Assembly (NCBI GenBank): GCA_021159015.1
Contig: JAGGSQ010000052.1
Coordinates: 1-35,019, forward strand
From: Candidatus Omnitrophota bacterium
GTDB lineage: Bacteria > Omnitrophota > Gorgyraeia > Duberdicusellales > Duberdicusellaceae
Length of the DNA stretch: 35,019 nt
Direction of reading: 5' to 3'
Below the pieces are notes generated by a model. It was not told the DNA's origin, ran no database searches, and worked only from the letters and a program-made list of their open reading frames with translations. The position numbers and the translations under genes were made by a program. Numbering within the stretch: position 1 is the stretch's first letter; each line of letters starts with the position of its first letter. Below are positions 1 to 14,125 of the stretch, one piece after another.

Positions 1-48
1 TTTATCAATTTAGCAATTTAGCAGTTTATCAGTTTATCAATTTATCAG
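1..48. repeat. 8-bp tandem repeat, TTTATCAR-like, about 6 imperfect copies
   Basis: Direct reading: tttatcaa tttagcaa tttagcag tttatcag tttatcaa tttatcag. It overlaps the stop codon (37-39) of the radical SAM ORF. Confidence 0.8.
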
Positions 49-1164
49 TTTGACATTCATCTGCTCTGCTGTGGCTTTTGCCAGTTCACAATAATAAGCA
101 ACAGGGGCCTCTTCATCACCTGTCTCTAAATACGCCCTTGCTGGGCAGTGATAGCAAATAGCCCTTAAAGGGCAATCCTTACATTTAGAATCTGTCTTAA
201 ACTTTTCTTTTAAAAGTTGAGGAAAACGCTTATAGAAACCTTCTCTAAATGATTCTTTCTTTAAATCAGAACTGAATTTTTCACTGAATTGACAGAATTT
301 CAGTATTCCATAGGGATTGATAAAAAATTGACTCATCCAGGCATTACAGCGATAAAGAAATTCTCTATCTCTATTTAAATCAGGAAAACCTGCTTTTAAT
401 CCATTTTGGTATTCTTCCCAAATTTCCGGGTCCTTTTTTCTAAGCTCCAACAACTCCTCAGGAGAAAGTCTAAATTCAGTGGGAGTTTTATCGCCATTTA
501 ATCTGGGATATATCATGGGGTCGTACTTGAAATAGTATCTATTCTTTGAAGGTTTACCTAAGAGTTCTTGCGCCCATCTTTTTATTTTAGCAATCTCATT
601 TTTATTCTGTTTAAGGCAATTGGACTTCAAAATTAAAGGTAATTTTTTTTCTTTCAATTTTTTAATATTTTCTATAACTTTTTCAAATGAGCCTTCCACT
701 TGAGTAATCGCTTCGTAGGCGCTTTTGGTTATCCCATTCAAAGTAATCTCTATGGAATAAGGAGGAGATTTTACCAAATAATCAATAATCTTATCTGTAA
801 AAAGTGTACCATTGGTAAATAAGGTAATGATAAACCCTTTGTTTCTGGCATAAGCATAAATCTTCAAGAAATCGTCTCTGATTAAAGGCTCTCCTCCAGT
901 AAAAGTGAGCCACAAACAGCCTTCTTTGTGGATTTCATCCAGAATTTCTTTCCACTCTTTAGTTGTTAATTCTCGGTTCTCTAACGTGTGACGTGTGACG
1001 TGTGACGTGTGACGTGTTGTATGTTTCCCCTCACTTCCTTTACAATAACAGTGAACGCAATTCAGATTACATCTATAGGTAAGTTCAATCTGACTATTTA
1101 AAGGATACTGGTCTTTTTTATTAGCTAAATTCCCATAGAAATGACCTCCGCTTATCTCTTCCAT
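37..1164 (-). CDS. Radical SAM/SPASM-domain peptide-modifying enzyme
   Basis: CNLNCVHC (CxxxCxxC), GGEPLIRDDF, and a C-terminal Cys cluster (CNAW, CQFSEKF, CKDCPLRAICYHCPARAY) typical of SPASM proteins. ORF track starts at 1233; the MEEISGG start at 1164 with an upstream purine-rich ggggaagag is more likely. Confidence 0.9.
   Translation of the reverse strand: MEEISGGHFYGNLANKKDQYPLNSQIELTYRCNLNCVHCYCKGSEGKHTTRHTSHVTRHTLENRELTTKEWKEILDEIHKEGCLWLTFTGGEPLIRDDFLKIYAYARNKGFIITLFTNGTLFTDKIIDYLVKSPPYSIEITLNGITKSAYEAITQVEGSFEKVIENIKKLKEKKLPLILKSNCLKQNKNEIAKIKRWAQELLGKPSKNRYYFKYDPMIYPRLNGDKTPTEFRLSPEELLELRKKDPEIWEEYQNGLKAGFPDLNRDREFLYRCNAWMSQFFINPYGILKFCQFSEKFSSDLKKESFREGFYKRFPQLLKEKFKTDSKCKDCPLRAICYHCPARAYLETGDEEAPVAYYCELAKATAEQMNVKLIN
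984..1017. repeat. 7-bp tandem repeat (ACGTGTG), 4 perfect copies plus a partial fifth
   Basis: Direct reading: acgtgtg x4 then acgtgt. It lies inside the radical SAM ORF and encodes TRHTSHVTRHT. Confidence 0.95.
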
Positions 1165-1216
1165 TACTCTTCCCCTGTAGTATAGTAGTATGGAATCACC
1201 AAAAAATAAAAAAGAC

Positions 1217-1462
1217 CTAAGAAGAAACCACACTGGAAGAAGCAGAGATAGACCATCCTGGGGAACTGAAAGTAGTGACTAAATACTTATCAGGACCCGC
1301 ACTACAAAAATGGCTATTTCTTGAAAGAGCAAGTCTATATCTTCCCCCCGGAGTGGCATGTATCGTTCTACCCGCCCAATAACAAGTACACCACAACACC
1401 GCCTGCTCAGGATTGAGTTTAATTCTGGTAACTCTGGGTCTGAATTTTGGTTTTCTTCCCAT
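1217..1462 (-). CDS. Candidate RiPP precursor peptide (81 aa)
   Basis: Strong SD (AAAAGGAGGT, 1471-1480) 8 bp before ATG. Leader-like segment GRKPKFRPRVTRIKLNPEQAVL followed by WCTCYWAGRTIHATPGGRY and a Ser/Gly/Cys-containing tail. Lies between a PqqD-like gene and a radical SAM gene on the same strand. Confidence 0.65.
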   Translation of the reverse strand: MGRKPKFRPRVTRIKLNPEQAVLWCTCYWAGRTIHATPGGRYRLALSRNSHFCSAGPDKYLVTTFSSPGWSISASSSVVSS

Positions 1463-1552
1463 AACTTAACACCTCCTTTTTTGTTCTACTCCTTATATTT
1501 CAAGAAGTTTTTGCACTTTTTAGTATGGAATGCGTATATAAGGTTTACCAAT

Positions 1553-1834
1553 TCAAACAAGTGCTTTTATCTCCTTCAAATCATTTAAAAATTGCAAAAG
1601 TTCTTTCTCTACCTCCTCAGGTGTGGCACCAAATCTTTTTAGAATCTCCTTCTTAATCTCATCCAATGTTTTCTTCCCATCAATCAGATTCCATACCGTC
1701 TGTCCTACTTTATTTAAGGTATAGATATAGTCGGCCTCCTCAGATGTCTTATAAATAGGGATTAAAATTGTCTCATCTTCAATCACCCTCATCACAAAAT
1801 CTGGATTCCTTTTTAGAACTAAACTGTTGTCCAT
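1553..1834 (-). CDS. PqqD-like RiPP recognition element protein
   Basis: 93 aa with the PqqD pattern: YTLNKVGQTVWNLIDGKKTLDEIKKEILKRFGATPEEVEKELLQFLNDL. Confidence 0.85.
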   Translation of the reverse strand: MDNSLVLKRNPDFVMRVIEDETILIPIYKTSEEADYIYTLNKVGQTVWNLIDGKKTLDEIKKEILKRFGATPEEVEKELLQFLNDLKEIKALV

Positions 1835-1864
1835 CTCTATCCCCCTTTCAATAATTTAGCTATC

Positions 1865-2268
1865 TTAAGACCTACTCTTAAAAGGATTCAGCATAACAAT
1901 AACACGATTAATAAATTGCTGATACTTTATGGTAAGATTTTTAATATGATTTTTCCTTAAGATAGCTATGACTCTTCCTTTAACCATATCCTTACTTACA
2001 AGCTCAATTGATTTTGAATTATCACCTCACTATAAAGCAAATATCTCTGTTTACCCTTAATCTTTTTTACCAAGCGATGGCAAACCAGTTGGTTACTCTT
2101 AACATATAGAATTATATCACCTATTTTTAAATCTTTAAAGGAGGTTTTCTTAACTATCAGCTTATCCTTTGACCTTAAAAATGGCCACATATTAAAACCT
2201 GTCGCTTCGAAAAAAAATAAATCTGGAGATTCCTGCTTTAAAGCCATAATCTTATCTCTCTGTGTCAT
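1865..2268 (-). pseudogene. S24/S26 signal-peptidase-like protein, frameshifted and lacking the catalytic Ser
   Basis: ATGFNMWPFLRSKDKLIVKKTSFKDLKIGDIILYVKSNQLVCHRLVKKIKGKQRYLL matches the S26 pattern GxSMxPxL...GDIVxY...HRV. The ORF stops at 1996, but the next frame continues GDNSKSIELVSKDMVKGRVIAILRKN to about 1865. Exact start (2304, 2268 or 2247) unresolved. Confidence 0.65.
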
Positions 2269-3826
2269 CTTTAACTTTGAATATACGAATTGCTGCAAGA
2301 CCATTGGGATAATAAATAGTTTTAATCGGTGTTGTCTCAGGATGGTTAATTTTAAAGTGTTTCCACAGCCAACTAAATTCGCCTCCTCGATAATCCTCGG
2401 GGTGGGATTCTGGCGCCCAGACTATATAATAAACACCTTTCCTATGCTGTCCTATCTGTCTTTTTGGTCCACCATAAAACTCATCCCCTATAGCAGTATT
2501 AAACAGATAATAATTAAGGTAATATGTGTAGTGGCTCCATTGATGAATCGGTTATTATCCCATAATTCTTAATATCAGGAACTCGGCTTAAATACTGAGC
2601 TGCTTCTTTACAGCCATAACTATTAAATCGGCATTCTTCCAGGTTAAAAGGTGCAATTTGATAATAATGCACTATTTGAAAGACCTCTGTAAAGATTAGC
2701 CCCGTACAAAGAAAGATTCCTGTAAAAAACAATAATCTACACTTAAAGAAAGCCTTTTTTATAGCGTAGTTAAATATCTCTGCGAAAAGTTTAGCTATTA
2801 CAATCAAAAAAGGTACTAAAATAATAATATATCTGGCTTGAAAAAATTTTACACCTGAAATAGCACCTAAACCACCTAAACCTAACCAGATTAAAAGAAT
2901 TTTATCTGAAACTTCTCTGCGACAGAAAGAAATAAATATTGAAAACAAAACAATGAGAAGTGTCGTCCTACTTATTAACAACGGAGAATTCAGAGCTTTA
3001 CCATAGAGAACAGAACCAGACGAATTAAAAAATAGGGCTTTAAATACTACGGGGCTATTATTTTTGAAATTTATCAATGACTTAATAAAAAAACAGCCAG
3101 AGTATCCTTAAAAGGTTCATCCTGATAGTACAAACGGTAAACCTTTCCTAAATATTGGTTATTTGACCTGTTATTTGCAAAAATATGAGTGGAGATAAAA
3201 TTACAAGAAATATCAATATACCTAATAAAAATACTCCTGGTCTAAGCCAATAAAGTTCTTTTCTTAAAAACACTAATGTTACCAAAAAAATGGGAACAAA
3301 AAGTAAGGAAGCCTGATAGGTATAGAATGAACCCACACTAAGAAAAAGGCAGGAAAGCAAAAACCATAAATTGCTTTTTTTGTTAATAGACTTAACCAAA
3401 GATAAAAAAATTAAACATCCCAAAAGAGGTGTTTCAATCGTAGCCGCTCCTACTCTACTTTGAATTATATGCCAGGGTAAAAAACACAGTAACAGCGCAG
3501 ATATTAGTCTTGCTCTTTCCCCATACATCTTTTTTGTTAACATATAAATCAGGATAACCGTGAATACGCCAATTAAAACTGAGGGCATACGAATGATATA
3601 TATAGGATCAGAAAAAATCTTGTTTGTAAAAAAGTTAAGTAACTAAAGAAAGGCCGGATATATCCATGAAAACAAGAAACCGGAATACCCATAAATTTAT
3701 CAAAATTGCTTAAGGAACCAATAGTCCATGTTGCTTCATCGTGATTAAGAGGAAAAAGTGTTAAGTTATATGCTCTAATAAAAAAGATAAAACAAAGATA
3801 AAACACAGTAATACTTTAAATCTCAT
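2252..3826 (-). pseudogene. GT39 / PMT-like (dolichyl-phosphate-mannose-type) membrane glycosyltransferase, multiply frameshifted
   Basis: Three consecutive minus-strand ORFs (3573-3806, 3148-3588, 2514-3077) give one protein: FPLNHDEATW N-terminus, multi-TM middle, then an unlisted frame GVYYIVWAPESHPEDYRGGEFSWLWKHFKINHPETTPIKTIYYPNGLAAIRIFKVKDDTER* ending at 2252. The ATG at 3826 overlaps the TGA of the upstream GT9 gene. Confidence 0.75.
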
Positions 3827-5040
3827 CTCTCCTCTATAGACAAAATAGACTTCATTGCCTTATAAACTTCATCTGGTCTAATCATCTTCAAACACCTGTT
3901 ATTTTTGCAAGCAGAAGAGCGATGATTAAAAATAGAAAAACAAGGAGAACAGATAAGATTTATATATATTACATAAGTCTCTCCTAAAGGAGCAAAAACA
4001 ATAGGACTTTCCGGTCCAAATATAACAAATTTTTTTATTGGAGTTAACGAAGCCAGATGAGCTAAACCACAATCATAGGTAATCAAAACCTCAGCTATAG
4101 CAAAAAGAATTAACAATTCTGAAAGAGTAGTTTTTCCGTTGAGATTTATACAACGGTTACTATTAATAGCCTCACAAAATCTCTTTGCCTTATGGGAGAA
4201 ATCTGCTTTTCCTACAACAACAATAAAATTTCTATCGTTCTCTAATATTCTTCTACAGAGAACAATAAAATTCTCTAATGGCCATTCTCTTAAAGGAAGG
4301 GTACCCTCTCCTGGATTAACAAGAAACAATTTTGCTCCTCTGTTTATCCCTAAATTTTGTAATTTCTTTAACATTCTTTCTTTTTTCTCCTCAGAGACAA
4401 TAAACTCAGGCAAACTAACTTCTTCTCTATTAATAACTCTTTTTAAGTCCGGGGTATCTTTCCTATCAAATTCAACTACTTGCAAAAAAGACAGAAAAGA
4501 TTTACTTATATGAATCATAGGATTGTACTGAATCTTGTGAGTCAATAAATTCCCTCGATATAAACCTTCAAGGGCATAATGATAAAACCCAATTCTTCTT
4601 TTCGCTCCTATCACAAAAGAAAATAAAACTGTAAAACGAGAAAAAAATTCTAAATCAAAAGCAACATCTATATTTTCTTTTCTCAATTTTTTTACCGCTC
4701 TTAAGGTATCTAAAACAAATAAGCAGACTGTGCTCTTCCTTATAGTCAATATCTTATCTGTAGAGATAATTCTCAATATCTCTAGAAGGGCTTTGTTTTC
4801 TTTAAAGCTAAGAAAGAAAACATCCGCTCGAGGGTATTTCTCTTTAAAATGTTTAATTAAAGGATAACTTAAAATAATACTTCCCATCTCTGACAATTTA
4901 ATAAATAACACCTTAGCTACTTCTTTCTCTTTCTTCTCTCGATAAGAAAATAATTTCCAAATATAGTTTATACCGCTAAATAGAAAACACAGAGGGATAC
5001 CTATCCAATAGTCTATTTTTTTCATGAATTCAATAGTCAT
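3823..5040 (-). CDS. Glycosyltransferase family 9 (LPS heptosyltransferase-like)
   Basis: 405 aa; FLVNPGEGTLPLREWPLENFIVLCRRIL, NLNGKTTLSELLILFAIAEVLITYDCGLAHLASL and FGPESP are GT9 motifs. Confidence 0.85.
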   Translation of the reverse strand: MTIEFMKKIDYWIGIPLCFLFSGINYIWKLFSYREKKEKEVAKVLFIKLSEMGSIILSYPLIKHFKEKYPRADVFFLSFKENKALLEILRIISTDKILTIRKSTVCLFVLDTLRAVKKLRKENIDVAFDLEFFSRFTVLFSFVIGAKRRIGFYHYALEGLYRGNLLTHKIQYNPMIHISKSFLSFLQVVEFDRKDTPDLKRVINREEVSLPEFIVSEEKKERMLKKLQNLGINRGAKLFLVNPGEGTLPLREWPLENFIVLCRRILENDRNFIVVVGKADFSHKAKRFCEAINSNRCINLNGKTTLSELLILFAIAEVLITYDCGLAHLASLTPIKKFVIFGPESPIVFAPLGETYVIYINLICSPCFSIFNHRSSACKNNRCLKMIRPDEVYKAMKSILSIEER

Positions 5041-6859: not shown

Positions 6860-7876
6860 CTATGAAAGAAAACTTATCTTTTGGGAAGACTGCACTACCT
6901 CTCCGATAATAAAGACATCTATATCATTATCATTTTTCAAGCTACTTAGCACTCTTTGAGCTTGTTTCTTATCAACTATTAAAACCATCCCTATGCCCAT
7001 ATTAAAGACCGCATACATCTCTTTCTCGCTAATATTACCTTCTTTCTGGATAAAGCGAAAAATTTCAGGAACTGGCCAGCTTCTTTTATCTACTACAAAT
7101 CCCAAACCTTCCGGCAAAAGCTTGGTGAGCTTGTTATAAAAAGCTCCCCCTGTTATGTGAGCAATGCCCTTTACCACAAGAGTACCCTTATTAAATCTTG
7201 CCAACAACCTTCTTACTGTTTTTACATAAATCCGTGTAGGTTCAAGCAGTTCTTCCGCATAGCTTCTTATTTGCTTTCGGCTAAGTACTTTCCTTACGAG
7301 AGAAAAACCATTGGAATGAAGTCCGGAAGAAGAAAGCCCTAGCAACAAATCTCCTTTTTTTATTTTATGCCCATCTACTATCTCTTTTTTCTCTACTACT
7401 CCCACACAAAATCCCGCCAGATCATACTCTCCCCTTTTATATACCCCCGGCATTTCCGCTGTTTCCCCTCCTAAAAGCACACATTTCGCCTCCTTAAGTC
7501 CTTTATATATCCCTTCTACAATATCTCCCAACACGCCTAAATTAAGCTTGCCACAGGCAATATAATCAAGAAAAAATAAAGGAGCGGCCCCACAGCAGAC
7601 AATATCATTTACATTCATCGCTACCAAATCAATTCCTATAGTATTATGTTTTCCCAGAGCTTGCGCTAACTTGAGTTTCGTCCCTACGCCATCGCAGCTA
7701 CACACCAGATAAGGATGTTTTCTTTTTTTAATAAAGCCGCCATCAAAAAATGTCGCAAAAGCGCGTAGGCGAGGATTCTGAGGCATAAACTTCCTTATCT
7801 CTCTCACAAATCTTTCTGCTGCCTCTACATCTACACCGCTCTGACGATAACTGGTTTTCTTTACTTTCCGAGGCAT
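6860..7876 (-). CDS. purM: Phosphoribosylformylglycinamidine cyclo-ligase
   Basis: SYRQSGVDVEAAERFV, CDGVGTKLKLA, GGETAEMPGVY, GLSSSGLHSNGFSLVRK, GIAHITGGAFYNKL. Confidence 0.97.
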   Translation of the reverse strand: MPRKVKKTSYRQSGVDVEAAERFVREIRKFMPQNPRLRAFATFFDGGFIKKRKHPYLVCSCDGVGTKLKLAQALGKHNTIGIDLVAMNVNDIVCCGAAPLFFLDYIACGKLNLGVLGDIVEGIYKGLKEAKCVLLGGETAEMPGVYKRGEYDLAGFCVGVVEKKEIVDGHKIKKGDLLLGLSSSGLHSNGFSLVRKVLSRKQIRSYAEELLEPTRIYVKTVRRLLARFNKGTLVVKGIAHITGGAFYNKLTKLLPEGLGFVVDKRSWPVPEIFRFIQKEGNISEKEMYAVFNMGIGMVLIVDKKQAQRVLSSLKNDNDIDVFIIGEVVQSSQKISFLS

Positions 7877-9072
7877 CTTCTGTTAATAGTCGCTACTATT
7901 TTTTCTCGCAAAGCCTGTGGCTCCTGCCACCTCCTCCGTACAAATCCATCCATATCCACCGCTAAAACCTGAGCTACTACAAGAGGAGACTTATCTCCAA
8001 GCCCCATAAGAAAGTAAATAAGCCGTGGCGAATAAGTAAGAAGTAGCCGAAAAGCTCTCTTTCTTACTGCCTCATGCTCACTGAGCAAATTCTCAGCTAA
8101 GATATCTTCTACATCTATGCCTCTCTTACGAAACTCAGCTCTTAAGTAACTAGAATTAACATAAACCCTGTCTAAAGAAGCACTTATCTTATCTCTAAAT
8201 ATAGCTAAGGCCACAGCTGCGTAGTAGCGTAGAGTTTCTGGCGCGTTATTATCAAGCAAGATATCTTTTGTTCTCTCTAGAACCTGCCGTTGGTCTAAAT
8301 TAGCTAAAGCCACTAAGGAAGAACCTTTCAGTTGAGAATTAGAAGAATTTAACTCTTCCTCATCTGCTTTTACGAATATACCTGCTTCACTTAGCAAGAT
8401 TTTTATATTAGCGCGCACAATATCTTTCCTTTCCCGTTCTAACGCCTCCCTAAGTATATCTATATGACTACCACCCATATTGCCTAGAGCCATAACCGCA
8501 GCATTACGCAAAAGCCAGGAAGAAGAGCTTAATGCGCCAATTATTTCCTCTTCTGCCTCTTTATACCTATTTCTGTTCCACGCCCTTACTATCTCTGCTT
8601 TTACTAAATCATTTCTTTCGCTTCTAAAAACTTGCCGCAGCCAATCAAGAAGCTCCTTTCTGTTACTTCGTCCGATTATCCTTACTGCTGCCACACGAAT
8701 TTGAAGGATAGGAGAGTTTAGATATTTCTGAAGTTTAGCCTGAGTTAATTCTCCCCTAACCAAAGCCAAAACTAAATTGGCATAAGCTTTTATTATGGCA
8801 TCGGAAGAATGCTGATTACGCTCTAAGGCTCTAATTATCTGGGCTGTTTTGAATTTAGTTGTCGCCACTGCCAAAAAGGCACGGATTTTTAATGTATCCG
8901 AATGTGACTCAAGAAACTCTGCAAGTATATTTCCGGTATTACTTACCTTAAAAGCCTCGATGTAATCTAAACCTACCCGACGCAGCTGAGAAGAACGGCA
9001 ATATCCCCTTGCGCTGAGACTAACTCCCCCCAGAACCAAAATTAAACTAAAAACCAGCCCTATTCTTTTCAT
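7861..9072 (-). CDS. Secreted HEAT-repeat protein
   Basis: 403 aa; N-terminal signal sequence then repeated helical units such as LNSPILQIRVAAVRIIGR, LSSSSWLLRNAAVMALGNMG, LLDNNAPETLRYYAAVALAIFRD, LSEHEAVRKRAFRLLL. Confidence 0.8.
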   Translation of the reverse strand: MKRIGLVFSLILVLGGVSLSARGYCRSSQLRRVGLDYIEAFKVSNTGNILAEFLESHSDTLKIRAFLAVATTKFKTAQIIRALERNQHSSDAIIKAYANLVLALVRGELTQAKLQKYLNSPILQIRVAAVRIIGRSNRKELLDWLRQVFRSERNDLVKAEIVRAWNRNRYKEAEEEIIGALSSSSWLLRNAAVMALGNMGGSHIDILREALERERKDIVRANIKILLSEAGIFVKADEEELNSSNSQLKGSSLVALANLDQRQVLERTKDILLDNNAPETLRYYAAVALAIFRDKISASLDRVYVNSSYLRAEFRKRGIDVEDILAENLLSEHEAVRKRAFRLLLTYSPRLIYFLMGLGDKSPLVVAQVLAVDMDGFVRRRWQEPQALREKIVATINRRCLGK

Positions 9073-9085
9073 TTTCCCCTCCTAG

Positions 9086-10483
9086 CTAATACTGGTTGCC
9101 CCTCTCCAGGGCAAATTTATTTAATTCCTGCCTGGACTTAAGAGGATAGTTTCCGCTCCAGCAGGCGGTGCAATAATTATTGGCAGAATAGCGGAAACAC
9201 CTAAGCATTCCTTCCAGGCTCAAGTAGCCAATACTGTCAACCTCTAAAAATCTCCTCTCTTCTTCCAGACTCATTTTATTAGCAATAAGCCTGTTTTTAT
9301 CAGGGAAATCTATACCGTAAAAACAGCCGAAGCGGTGCGGAGGACAAGAAATACGCAAATGCACCTCTCTTGCTCCCAGACTCTTCAAATTTTTAACCCG
9401 GATACGGGAGGTAGTCCCGCGCACTATAGAATCATCAATTACGACTATGCGCTTATTGCTTACTACTTCTTTCAAAATATTAAATTTTAGACGGGCGGCT
9501 AATTCCCTCTCACTCTGATAGGGCTGAATAAAAGTCCTGCCTATATAATGATTGCGAATAATTCCCAAACCTAACGGTATATTTGACTCTTTAGAAAAAC
9601 CTAAGGCCGCCGAAGTCCCTGAATCTGGCACCCCCACTACTACATCTGCTTCTACCGGATGTTCTTTTGCTAAGGCCCTACCTAGCTCTTCTCTCACCAG
9701 ATGGACATTCTGCCCAAAGACAAAGGAATCGGGACGGGAAAAATAAATATGCTCAAAACTACAGAATGCTTTCTTCTTTAAGGAAGGAAATATTCTCTCA
9801 GAATGCAAACCATTTTTATCAACCCAAACTAACTCTCCCGGGTCCACCTCCCGCACGAACTCTGCTCCTACCAGATCCAAAGCGCAACTTTCAGAGGAAA
9901 TATAAAAACTATCTCCTTTTTTCCCGATACACAAGGGACGAAACCCCAAAGGGTCTCTCATCCCCGCCACCAGCCTATCATTCATAATCAGAAGCGAATA
10001 AGCACCTCTTATTTTACCTGTGGCATATCTCATTTTGTCCAGGAAGCTCTCTCCTTTAGCCCTCATCATAAGATGAAGTATTATCTCCGAATCAGACGAA
10101 CTCTGAAAGATTGCTCCCCTGTCTTCTAATTTTTCACGCAAAAGGCGGGAATTGAGAAGATTACCGTTATGAGCCAGACTCAAAGAACCGCGGCGTGAAT
10201 CCACAAAGAGAGGTTGTATATTTCTAATAGCCGTAGAGCCGGTAGTAGAATAGCGCACATGTCCGATAGCTTGATATCCTTTTAAACTATTAAGTATTGT
10301 CTCATTAAAAACATCGCCTACTAATCCCATTCCGCGGTGATTACAAAATACTTCTCCGTCAAAAGAAGTAATGCCACACGATTCTTCTCCCCGATGCTGC
10401 AGTGAATACAGTCCCAAAAATACTTCTTTCGCTGCCTCTTTTTGCCCGAATACTCCAAAGAGACCGCAATATTCTTTAATCAT
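9086..10483 (-). CDS. purF: Amidophosphoribosyltransferase
   Basis: CGLFGVFGQKEAA N-terminal nucleophile Cys, LQHRGEESCGI, GHVRYSTTGS, IVVIDDSIVRGTTSRIRV PRPP loop, C-terminal Cys set. Confidence 0.97.
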   Translation of the reverse strand: MIKEYCGLFGVFGQKEAAKEVFLGLYSLQHRGEESCGITSFDGEVFCNHRGMGLVGDVFNETILNSLKGYQAIGHVRYSTTGSTAIRNIQPLFVDSRRGSLSLAHNGNLLNSRLLREKLEDRGAIFQSSSDSEIILHLMMRAKGESFLDKMRYATGKIRGAYSLLIMNDRLVAGMRDPLGFRPLCIGKKGDSFYISSESCALDLVGAEFVREVDPGELVWVDKNGLHSERIFPSLKKKAFCSFEHIYFSRPDSFVFGQNVHLVREELGRALAKEHPVEADVVVGVPDSGTSAALGFSKESNIPLGLGIIRNHYIGRTFIQPYQSERELAARLKFNILKEVVSNKRIVVIDDSIVRGTTSRIRVKNLKSLGAREVHLRISCPPHRFGCFYGIDFPDKNRLIANKMSLEEERRFLEVDSIGYLSLEGMLRCFRYSANNYCTACWSGNYPLKSRQELNKFALERGNQY

Positions 10484-10485
10484 TA

Positions 10486-11259
10486 TTAAGCAAAATAACT
10501 TTTAATGTTTTTGAAAACTTCCAGCCCCCAGGCCTGAGCCTTCTCCTCTTTCTCATAAGGGCAATGCTCCGCATAAATATAACGCTCCGGATGCGGCATC
10601 ATTCCTAATATATTTCCTTCTGTATTTACCACTGCCGCAATATTCTTTAGAGATCCATTAGGATTAAAAGGGTAGCCTCTCCTTTCTCCTTCTTCGTTTA
10701 CATAACGCAAAGCCACAAGGTTTTCTTCCTCTATTTTACCTAATAAATTATCTTCTGTATAGAATTTTCCTTCTGCATGGGCTACCGGAAGAGGAAACAC
10801 TTCAGGAAGATTTCTAAACCAAAAATGTCTGCCTATCCGCTCTTTTTTCAGCCATACCCAACGGTCCTCAAAACGCCCCGAATCATTAAGTATCAACGAA
10901 CACCTCGGCTGGAAATCAGAGAAAGGCAGAAGGCCTAATTTGACCAAAATCTGGAAACCATTACATATACCCAAAATAAGCCCCCCTTTATGCATAAATT
11001 CTTGTAGTTCCTCCCTAAATATATTTTCGAGCTCCAAGGCAAAAACTTTTCCGGCCGATATATAATCTCCATAACTAAACCCTCCCGGGAGGCATATTAT
11101 TTGATACTTATGAAATAACTGCTTTTTGTCTTTTAAAGTACTCACATGTACTATATCTGCCTCTACCTCTGCTTTCTCAAAAGCAAGTTTTGTCTCGCGT
11201 TCACAATTAGTCCCCGCCGCCCGCAAAATTATAGCTCTAGGAGAAATAGCCATTCTCAA
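10486..11259 (-). CDS. purQ: Phosphoribosylformylglycinamidine synthase, glutaminase subunit
   Basis: RAAGTNCERETKLAFEKA, LPGGFSYGDYISAGK, GLILGICNGFQILVKLGLLP, MMPHPERY. Confidence 0.96.
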   Translation of the reverse strand: MRMAISPRAIILRAAGTNCERETKLAFEKAEVEADIVHVSTLKDKKQLFHKYQIICLPGGFSYGDYISAGKVFALELENIFREELQEFMHKGGLILGICNGFQILVKLGLLPFSDFQPRCSLILNDSGRFEDRWVWLKKERIGRHFWFRNLPEVFPLPVAHAEGKFYTEDNLLGKIEEENLVALRYVNEEGERRGYPFNPNGSLKNIAAVVNTEGNILGMMPHPERYIYAEHCPYEKEEKAQAWGLEVFKNIKSYFA

Positions 11260-14125
11260 ACCTCTTCCAGCTTTTTCTTAATTTTTCTACTTCCAAATCT
11301 ACTATTAACTCTGCTTCTCTGGAATAAACCTTTAGCTTTCTCTCTCCTACACACCCAACAAGACCAAAAGGAATTTGTGAAAATATTTTCTCAAATTTAT
11401 CTTTATTCTCTTTTTTAACTTCTACTATAAACCGGCTGGGACTTTCTGAAAAAAGCAGGCTGAAGGCAGAAATATTTTCTTCCTGAGGCAGCTCTGAAAG
11501 AAAGACGTCTACTCCTTTATTTCCCCCTATACACATCTCAGCTAAACACACCCCTAATCCTCCCTCGGAAATATCATGGCAGGATTCTATCAAGTTATTT
11601 TTTTGTGCTATGTTTATGTGCTGGAAAATCGTGCGTGCCATTGCTGCATCTGCTTTAGGTACAAATCCCCCTCCCCTGCCCCATAGACGCAGAACCTCAC
11701 TTCCCCCCAGCTCATTCTTTGTGACTCCTATAGCATAAACTAAGTTAGCTTTCTTTTGAAAGAAAGAGGGGGATGCTTTCTCCACATCTTCAATTATCCC
11801 TAAAGCTGAAATAAGCAAAGTAGGAGGAATTACAATACGTTTCCCCTCTAGAACAAACTCATTATAAAAGCTGTCCTTGCCGGAAATAAAGGGAACCCCT
11901 AAAGCCCTGGCATATTCGTAACAACCTCTAGCTGCTCTCACTAGCTCCCCGAGTTTTTCCTTATTTTCGGCTGAGCCCCAACAGAAATTGTCCAGAACCA
12001 CACAGCGGCCAAAATCTGCCCCTTGTGAGATAATATTTCTTATTGCTTCATCGATAGCAGCCTTAGCCATCCAGTAAGGGTCAATATCAGAATAAAAAGG
12101 ATTTATGCCACAACCCAGAACAATACCTTTTTTAGAATCATCCAGCGGTTTAATTATGGCCGCATCTGTTACTCCTCCATAGCGCCCCATCAAAGGTTTA
12201 GTGATAGTTTTAGCTTGTACTTCGTGATCATACTGACGAATAATCCAGTCTTTAGAAGCAATGTTGTAAGCACCTAAAAGCGCTAGTATAGTCTTGGCCT
12301 CGTCAATTCCTTCTATATCCGCTTCTTCCTCCTGCCTAACTTTCCATACTGCCTGCTTCTTTTCCTTTAAGAATCCCTTATGAAGAAAATTCATATCCAG
12401 ACTACAAACATTCCTGCCCTTATAAAAAACTTCTAACCTTTTAGAAGAGGTAACTTTACCTATTACCGCTATATCTACTTCTTCCTGCCGGCAAATCTCT
12501 TTAAGCCGCTCGAGTTTCTCCGGCCAGAGTACTAAAACCATTCTCTCTTGAGACTCAGATATCCATATTTCTGTATAATTTAGGCCCTGGTACTTTAAAG
12601 GAGCCTTCTCTAAGTAAACTTCTACTCCCTGCTCTCTGGCAATCTCCCCTACTGCCGAAGAGAACCCTCCTGCCCCACAATCAGTGATAGCAGTAAACAA
12701 ACCCTCACTTGCAGCTCTGGCTATCACTTCACATACTTTCTTCTCCTCCAAAGGATTTCCTATCTGTACCGCCGAACCCGCGGTATCAGTAGATTCTTCT
12801 TTCAGGATAGCAGAGGAGAAAGTGGCGCCATGAATACCGTCTTTGCCCGTGGCTCCTCCCATTACAACTACAATTTCCCCTGCCTCAACTGTTTTGAAAG
12901 ATCTCTCTTGAGGCAAAATTCCTACATTGCCGCAAAAAACTAAGGGATTACCTAAAAAACGCTCCTCAAACAATACTGCTCCTGCTACTGTAGGTATACC
13001 CATACGATTGCCATAATCTCGCACTCCTGCCACAACCCCCTCTATAATGCGGCGCGGCGGCAAGAGAGAAGAGGGTAAAGATTCCTCTTGTGTGTCCGGA
13101 CGGCCAAAGCAAAAGATATCTGTATTAGCAATAGGGAAAGCCCCCCTGCCTGTGCCAAGTATATCCCTAATCACGCCCCCTATACCCGTAGAAGCCCCTC
13201 CGTAAGGCTCAAGGCTAGAGGGATGATTATGGGTTTCAACTTTAAAACACACATTGTAACCTTTGTCAAACTTAATAATTCCGGCGTTATCTTCAAAAAC
13301 AGATACGCAAAGAGGATGATTAATTTCTTGAGTAGCTTTTTTAATGGTAGAAGCAAATAAATTGCTGATTGTCTCTTGCCTTAAAATTTTACCTGTTTCA
13401 TCTATCTCTATATATTCAAAATCACTACGGAAAGTCTTATGTAAACAATGCTCTGACCAGGTCTGGGCAATTGTTTCCAGTTCACAATCGGTAGGATTGC
13501 GGCCTTCTTTCTGAAAATATTCTTTAATCTTTTTCATCTCGGCTAGATTCAAAGAAAGCATTCCTTTTTTGCTTATTTCTTTAAGCTTAGATTCATCTGC
13601 ATTCAGAAGGTCGATGAGTTTAAGTTCGAGTTTCTCCTTCTGTTTTTCCAGCCTCAGATGAGTTTTCTTTTTAAACTCGCCGAAATCAAGTAAATATTCA
13701 ATTAAGGGGTTATATAAAAACTTGCGCGCCATCTCTGCATAATCCAGAGCCTCTGAAGCCACTAATTTATATTCGCGCACGTACTTAACTTCTCTTACTT
13801 TAAAGCCCATTTCTCTAATAATTCTTTTAGTGACTAAAGCCACATTGTCCATTACCTGAGGATAATAAGCTATGCTGATTACATTCCTTTCTTCCTTTAC
13901 TTCGGAGATATTACTCACCCTATATTCTTCACTCACTCTATCACAAAGAACTCTTGCCGCTATCTCTTCTGCCGTGGCAAAAGATTCCTCCAGCTCCAGA
14001 AGGTAGACCGAAGAAAATTTTACTTCTACATTTTTATAACCTAAACCTTCTAGTTCTCTTTCTAATTTAAGAGCGGCATAGCTCTTCAGGCCCGCACGAG
14101 GGAAGACATCTACCTTATATATCAT
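11237..14125 (-). CDS. purL: Phosphoribosylformylglycinamidine synthase II with fused N-terminal PurS-like region
   Basis: 962 aa; TWSEHCLHKTFRS, FKVETHNHPSSLEPYGGASTGIGGVIRD, GGATGKDGIHGATFSS, ITDCGAGGFSSA, CHDISEGGLGVCLAEM. N-terminal MIYKVDVFPRAGLKSYAALKLERELEGLGY is PurS-like. Confidence 0.95.
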   Translation of the reverse strand: MIYKVDVFPRAGLKSYAALKLERELEGLGYKNVEVKFSSVYLLELEESFATAEEIAARVLCDRVSEEYRVSNISEVKEERNVISIAYYPQVMDNVALVTKRIIREMGFKVREVKYVREYKLVASEALDYAEMARKFLYNPLIEYLLDFGEFKKKTHLRLEKQKEKLELKLIDLLNADESKLKEISKKGMLSLNLAEMKKIKEYFQKEGRNPTDCELETIAQTWSEHCLHKTFRSDFEYIEIDETGKILRQETISNLFASTIKKATQEINHPLCVSVFEDNAGIIKFDKGYNVCFKVETHNHPSSLEPYGGASTGIGGVIRDILGTGRGAFPIANTDIFCFGRPDTQEESLPSSLLPPRRIIEGVVAGVRDYGNRMGIPTVAGAVLFEERFLGNPLVFCGNVGILPQERSFKTVEAGEIVVVMGGATGKDGIHGATFSSAILKEESTDTAGSAVQIGNPLEEKKVCEVIARAASEGLFTAITDCGAGGFSSAVGEIAREQGVEVYLEKAPLKYQGLNYTEIWISESQERMVLVLWPEKLERLKEICRQEEVDIAVIGKVTSSKRLEVFYKGRNVCSLDMNFLHKGFLKEKKQAVWKVRQEEEADIEGIDEAKTILALLGAYNIASKDWIIRQYDHEVQAKTITKPLMGRYGGVTDAAIIKPLDDSKKGIVLGCGINPFYSDIDPYWMAKAAIDEAIRNIISQGADFGRCVVLDNFCWGSAENKEKLGELVRAARGCYEYARALGVPFISGKDSFYNEFVLEGKRIVIPPTLLISALGIIEDVEKASPSFFQKKANLVYAIGVTKNELGGSEVLRLWGRGGGFVPKADAAMARTIFQHINIAQKNNLIESCHDISEGGLGVCLAEMCIGGNKGVDVFLSELPQEENISAFSLLFSESPSRFIVEVKKENKDKFEKIFSQIPFGLVGCVGERKLKVYSREAELIVDLEVEKLRKSWKRFENGYFS

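Follow-up and report, generated by a model that had tools for sequence, protein, structure and literature searches.

The stretch of DNA analysed here (the window) is one complete contig of 35,019 bp, JAGGSQ010000052.1, from an assembly (GCA_021159015.1) of a Candidatus Omnitrophota bacterium with a genome of 1.18 Mb that is 93% complete. At its left end is a minus-strand series of genes for a GT9 glycosyltransferase, a GT39/PMT_2 glycosyltransferase, an S26-like peptidase, a PqqD protein, a peptide of 81 amino acids (aa) and a radical SAM/SPASM enzyme. The window probably holds the upstream end of an operon for a ribosomally synthesized and post-translationally modified peptide (RiPP) that occurs in scattered Omnitrophota. 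This operon is cut by the contig end, with the radical SAM gene extending to a terminal tandem repeat, which is likely the cause of the assembly break. Thus the four window genes, from the peptidase to the radical SAM enzyme, are part of the operon only. Their features are as follows.

1..51, no strand: tandem repeat with a TTTATCAA unit, at the contig end
37..1164, minus strand: peptide maturase of the radical SAM/SPASM type, in clade A of the Omnitrophota enzymes (PF04055, 1.6e-24; Cys motifs; tree)
1217..1462, minus strand: predicted RiPP precursor peptide, 81 aa (conserved leader; ribosome-binding site; C-terminal ...VVSS)
1394..1462, minus strand: leader MGRKPKFRPRVTRIKLNPEQAVL of the precursor, with a [F/Y/W]xxPx[I/V/L] recognition-type motif (conservation in relatives)
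1220..1393, minus strand: hypervariable core of the precursor, with CxC, a third Cys (C53) and a C-terminal Ser; the bounds are approximate as to the cleavage site
1553..1834, minus strand: PqqD-like discrete RiPP recognition element (RRE) (PF05402, 52.9 bits, 4.9e-14, above the cut-off)
1862..2304, with the in-frame part at 1996-2304, minus strand: broken S26 gene, archaeal-type signal peptidase I-like (PF00717, 24.1 bits; TIGR02228, 29.4 bits)

An earlier note, made from the DNA letters and their open reading frames, had proposed a RiPP pathway in which a PqqD-type element and a SPASM radical SAM enzyme act on a small peptide, linked to glycan genes. The consecutive order peptidase, PqqD, 81-aa peptide and radical SAM on one strand is borne out by the domain matches listed. 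Neither Rfam families nor tRNA genes were detected in the window.

A strong ribosome-binding site, AAGGAGGTGTTAAGTT-ATG, precedes the 81-aa peptide. Its leader has the pattern M.RKPKFRP.ITRvKLNPEQAVL.C.C, and the first 23-27 residues recur in small open reading frames of the class, across genera; the leader consensus of the family is [F/Y/W]xxPx[I/V/L]xx[I/V]xLxPEQAVLxC. Because the ribosome-binding site is strong and the leader is conserved across genera, the 81-aa peptide is a real gene far beyond chance. A profile search detected the precursor in 30 of 384 genomes of the class at 1e-5, with up to 25 copies per genome, and in 23 of 237 sampled genomes of the phylum, four of which lie outside the class.

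Cores are of two types: in one, CxC is accompanied by one or more additional Cys, and in the other, CC is accompanied by two. Among CxC-type precursors the mean identity is 0.75 in the leader vs 0.26 in the core, and shuffled cores give 0.22. The C-terminus is constant: of the 58 full-length precursors, 54 have Ser as the last residue and the other four have Thr, whereas 10.7% of 419 other nearby genes encode a terminal Ser or Thr, and the C-terminal Ser is the sole Ser/Thr column conserved at ≥90%. With core sequences so diverged as to be almost random, the constant Ser/Thr end is most easily explained as a product of selection. In NCBIfam and PDB sequence searches the precursor matched no named family, and no NCBIfam model fits any of the precursor types described here. 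With these sequence properties, the 81-aa peptide is taken to be a genuine RiPP precursor. One genome, G209 (loci L035, L036, L043-L045 and L119), carries at least 25 CC-type precursors over many contigs, mostly distant from maturases; its maturases are grouped on contig C80 (L119:6742-11445).

In two genomes PqqD is fused to the precursor as one protein. A structural model of one fusion displays the leader as a strand and a helix (pLDDT 83-86), and the PDB entry most similar to it is that of the lasso RRE TbiB1 in complex with its own leader; the model suggests that the leader docks on the PqqD domain. Fusions are located at L108:3589-4131, L054:2309-3148 and L056:11487-12236, and those of genome G270 have repeat-rich linkers.

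The start codon of the radical SAM gene is probably the ATG at 1164 and not the GTG at 1233, because homologues begin at the former. Residues 32-39 of its protein form a CxxxCxxC motif, and the seven Cys of a SPASM domain are present (C273, C291, C328, C331, C337, C340 and C359). The SPASM assignment of the earlier note holds in this seven-Cys pattern but not as a Pfam SPASM match, which reaches 14.5 bits vs a cut-off of 21.5. In a tree the radical SAM proteins of the operons form three supported clades, A, B and C, with about one gene of each per operon; the window protein groups in clade A (support 97/96) and is 73% identical to the protein of locus L046. In a comparison with the NCBIfam maturase models for sactipeptides, ranthipeptides, SCIFF, PQQ and mycofactocin, all listed matches of the window protein lie far under the curated cut-offs, and the same applies to its relatives. 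The system is similar to the PQQ, mycofactocin and sactipeptide/ranthipeptide pathways in having PqqD-type recognition and a SPASM radical SAM enzyme for a ribosomal peptide with a Cys-containing core. It differs in the addition of a kinase and a nucleotidyltransferase, described below, and it reaches no curated subfamily cut-off, in agreement with the earlier statement that this is not a sactipeptide, ranthipeptide or SCIFF system.

Within the radical SAM gene is a short repeat:

984..1017, no strand: ACGTGTG heptamer, 4.9 copies, forming the in-frame insertion HTTRHTSHVTRHT

The loop that bears HTTRHTSHVTRHT is also of variable length in relatives, with other insertions there in L046, L052 and L058. 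The repeat could act as an on/off switch, as its reading frame would change with the gain or loss of a single unit.

The gene content of relatives was read from neighbourhoods of 3-20 kb in 22 genomes. In these, PqqD and the precursor recur together with S26, which is either a separate protein or joined to a PF14907 nucleotidyltransferase. The recurrent set is completed by as many as three radical SAM proteins, by a ~310-aa protein and by an ABC exporter that lacks a C39 domain. At locus L063 the order is S26, PqqD, precursor, radical SAM of clade A, kinase, radical SAM of clade C, ABC and nucleotidyltransferase, which agrees with the window as far as the contig end. A check for radical SAM/PqqD pairs that lack a conserved small open reading frame turned up none. 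The proposal of a RiPP pathway is thus well supported by the conserved leader, the hypervariable core, the multicopy precursors, the PqqD fusions and the three orthologous radical SAM clades.

Frequent additional genes in the operons encode a UPF0489 protein, U32 peptidases, a methyltransferase and GT4 glycosyltransferases. The UPF0489 protein, with TPR repeats, is found inside operons at L051:12194-13657 and as similar genes at seven more loci; it weakly resembles peptide arginases (44.9 bits vs a cut-off of 350), and an Arg-to-ornithine step is possible. Repeated pairs of a U32-family peptidase and a partner gene are present amid the radical SAM genes at L047:2278-4200 and 7409-9304.

The ~310-aa protein of the operons is predicted to be an HprK-like kinase. 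NCBIfam and PDB sequence searches yielded weak P-loop matches only, and its identity was resolved by a fold search, in which the model (pLDDT 89) had the fold of PEPCK and HPr kinase, with Foldseek values of 1e-7 to 2e-5. An invariant H and GxSxxGK[S/T] and a near-invariant DD are present, which correspond to essential residues of lasso peptide kinases (PMC10368454). The kinase is found in 27 of the 30 genomes that have the precursor vs 71 of the 354 others (Fisher 1e-14). Most other kinases that were fetched are housed in a second architecture, PqqD-radical SAM-peptide-kinase-S26/nucleotidyltransferase. The peptides of this architecture read [Y/W]xxPxIxxVxLxPEEAVLxxCK..., and all 15 of the 15 kinase-adjacent ones end in Ser or Thr. 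In addition, a kinase and a radical SAM protein are fused at L106:7880-9844 (654 aa). The small peptides that flank this fusion have KWAxPQLIVxTRG leaders and a C-terminal Ser.

The earlier note was right as to the identity of the S26-type peptidase, but the gene is not intact. In an alignment the nucleophile Ser is kept in 22 of 23 readable S26 homologues, the exception being L103 with Cys, while the window copy has Asn (NMWPF), and a three-frame reading shows that the frame is lost after about position 2030. The S26 copy of the window organism may be decaying, or its function may be met by a second S26 protein such as the nucleotidyltransferase-fused form of relatives. The two glycosyltransferase genes are located further upstream.

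2324..3827, minus strand: GT39/PMT_2 glycosyltransferase gene, frameshifted (PF13231, 3.7e-11 on one fragment; three-frame reading)
3823..5040, minus strand: GT9 heptosyltransferase-like gene, intact (PF01075, 3.2e-15; ATGA overlap with the GT39 start)

The ATGA overlap of the GT9 stop and the GT39 start that had been described is present at about 3823-3827, and four frame changes are required to read through GT39. Among relatives, a PMT_2 gene lies upstream of the operon in L034 and a GT9 gene within that of L042, neither of which is clearly orthologous to the window gene. The suggested specific link to GT9 and GT39 is weak, given the lack of clear orthology and the broken GT39 of the window, and a conserved link to these two genes is not supported as orthology. 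A polysaccharide export gene (Poly_export/SLBB) is located upstream of the operon at L063:11247-12164.

Three further characterised or catalogued systems are close to the one described here. In the linear polyphosphorylated peptides (LPP) of Bacillota, such as those of the lpp cluster of Paenibacillus alginolyticus (2026), the leader is presented by an RRE and cleaved off by the S26-like LppS, and polyphosphorylation of the core is the work of an HprK-like kinase (PMC13381572). Complete Omnitrophota relatives likewise combine an archaeal-type signal peptidase, a discrete RRE, an HprK-like kinase, a nucleotidyltransferase and an MsbA-like exporter, the window being truncated, and in their precursors, too, a leader with a conserved YxxPx motif precedes a hypervariable C-terminal part. 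LPP clusters are often inside polysaccharide loci (PMC13381572), which may be compared with the export gene near the L063 operon. The Omnitrophota leader does not conform to the LPP consensus YxxPxVLxHQxIxFETxxS, however, and there are one to three radical SAM enzymes per Omnitrophota operon, whereas none is mentioned in the LPP text and its product is linear; LPP is phosphorylated at Ser3 and is described as restricted to Bacillota (PMC13381572).

In lasso precursors an HprK homologue phosphorylates the C-terminal Ser, and in pseudomycoidin a nucleotidyltransferase puts hexoses on that phosphate (PMC8498205). Shared with paeninodin/pseudomycoidin-type lasso clusters are the RRE (B1), the HprK-like kinase, the nucleotidyltransferase, the ABC exporter and a YxxPxL-type leader motif. 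The traits of the paeninodin-type kinase (H, GxSxxGK[S/T], DD, HprK fold and a substrate ending in Ser) are all found in relatives, and the window assembly is without the kinase. Radical SAM enzymes take the place of the lasso cyclase: a lasso peptide is ruled out, as no cyclase (PF00733; 26 genomes) or B2 protease (PF13471) is found within 10 kb of any precursor.

The SynChlorMet cassette of NCBIfam (ScmC, ScmD, ScmE and ScmF) likewise has a PqqD-related protein, two radical SAM/SPASM proteins and an HprK-like protein, but the Omnitrophota system has three radical SAM clades, not two. A genuine SynChlorMet cassette, above all four NCBIfam cut-offs, was found with the same layout at a separate locus, L118 (G221:C5), 7771-13540. 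Between its enzymes are two small peptides that have C..GS repeats and the leader motif EWQAPELV, and an S26-domain protein lies downstream. These WQAPEL peptides are candidate precursors of the orphan SynChlorMet cassette; they do not end in Ser or Thr as the window-type precursors do.

Since the Omnitrophota operon has the whole LPP/lasso-type set plus radical SAM enzymes, we infer that the core is modified by leader-guided radical chemistry, that the C-terminus is phosphorylated and perhaps glycosylated, and that the leader is removed and the product exported. The discrete PqqD/RRE protein would bind the precursor leader and present the precursor to the SPASM radical SAM enzymes. These (A in the window; B and C are usual in complete operons) would modify the hypervariable core, most likely around the conserved Cys of CxC, or of CC plus further Cys. 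The HprK-like kinase would then phosphorylate the universal C-terminal Ser/Thr, to whose phosphate the PF14907 nucleotidyltransferase may attach a sugar. The S26 protease, which is signal peptidase I-like, would cut off the leader, and the product would be exported by the MsbA-like ABC transporter, which has no C39 peptidase domain. The roles of the kinase, of S26 in leader cleavage and of the nucleotidyltransferase are inferred from the characterised LPP and lasso relatives. A radical SAM RiPP with a phosphorylated and then possibly glycosylated C-terminal Ser/Thr is, in our estimate, a rather likely product of this pathway.

Several points weigh against this reading. The downstream half of the operon is, for the window itself, an extrapolation from relatives, and no kinase or radical SAM gene of clade B or C was found by PF04055 and kinase searches of the window genome assembly; these genes may be absent through either the contig break or loss. 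In relatives, ABC and nucleotidyltransferase genes are not beside every precursor. The S26 gene of the window is broken, the statistics for the C-terminus and for co-occurrence ignore shared ancestry, and the candidate precursors of the true SynChlorMet cassette do not end in Ser. In addition, LppK, the HprK-like kinase of LPP, acts on core Ser3 (PMC13381572), as does BsfK, so that an HprK-like fold does not fix the phosphosite. It is thus conceivable, though we consider it rather unlikely, that the pathway makes a RiPP in which the kinase targets a Ser near the leader-core junction or elsewhere, and that the C-terminal Ser/Thr serves, for example, glycan attachment or recognition by the exporter. 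CC-type precursors nearly always have Ser before the first Cys, and several operons are near glycosyltransferase and polysaccharide-export genes. The CxC type, however, often has W, F, A, D, Q or M before the Cys, no other Ser/Thr column is conserved, and the kinases characterised on a C-terminal Ser accept many sequences (PMC8498205).

A stronger contender, although still the less probable account, is that the window locus is a decaying remnant, with S26 and GT39 as pseudogenes, the remainder of the operon lost and the peptide no longer matured. The Ser to Asn change and frameshift of S26, the four frame changes of GT39, the repeat insertion within the radical SAM gene, the missing kinase and clade B and C enzymes, and four relatives of the same family without the precursor are all consistent with decay. 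On the other hand, PqqD, the precursor and the radical SAM gene are intact, with the catalytic Cys kept and a good ribosome-binding site, and the S26 and GT39 lesions may be sequencing or assembly errors. That the contig stops exactly here in a tandem repeat explains the missing genes equally well. It is very unlikely that the system is a SynChlorMet cassette. The types of parts are the same, with PqqD matching ScmD, the radical SAM proteins ScmE and ScmF, and the kinases ScmC, but the window and type-I matches are 36, 81 and 20-37 bits vs cut-offs of 100, 400 and 125 bits, respectively, and the genuine cassette of G221 is separate and has other precursors. With window-system proteins far under all Scm cut-offs, membership was rejected, and the operon is regarded as a sub-threshold relative of SynChlorMet. 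Finally, the small open reading frame might encode a conserved regulatory or structural protein that lies beside radical SAM genes and is not a precursor. Its conserved leader and nearly random core, the large copy numbers in single genomes, the fusions to PqqD and the constant Ser/Thr end make this hardly credible.

The preferred reading, a radical SAM RiPP phosphorylated at its C-terminus, looks from sequence like a relative of the LPP and paeninodin-type phosphopeptide RiPPs that is equipped with radical SAM enzymes and is apparently undescribed. The combination is not described in the open-licence literature, to which the search was confined, and nothing on SynChlorMet was found there either. 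A bolder proposal, to which we give slightly less than even odds, is that of a distinct RiPP class. Here up to three radical SAM enzymes would crosslink Cys-containing hypervariable cores, and the kinase and nucleotidyltransferase would put a phospho-sugar on the last Ser, giving up to 25 exported, possibly glycan-linked peptides per genome. SynChlorMet would belong to the same wider group, with the WQAPEL peptides of L118 as its precursors. As to the bond formed by each radical SAM enzyme and the biological role, the latter as secreted or surface peptides diversified by selection, these can only be guessed.

The predicted pathway unites two known RiPP modules, radical SAM chemistry on the core and phosphorylation/glycosylation of the C-terminus, in a phylum that is almost uncultured and has few known natural products. 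It offers testable precursors, a fixed prediction, i.e., a phosphate on the C-terminal Ser/Thr, and RRE-precursor fusions that are useful for structural work. That the cores are hypervariable while the leaders stay constant suggests that diversity is selected for, as in peptides of interbacterial or host interaction.

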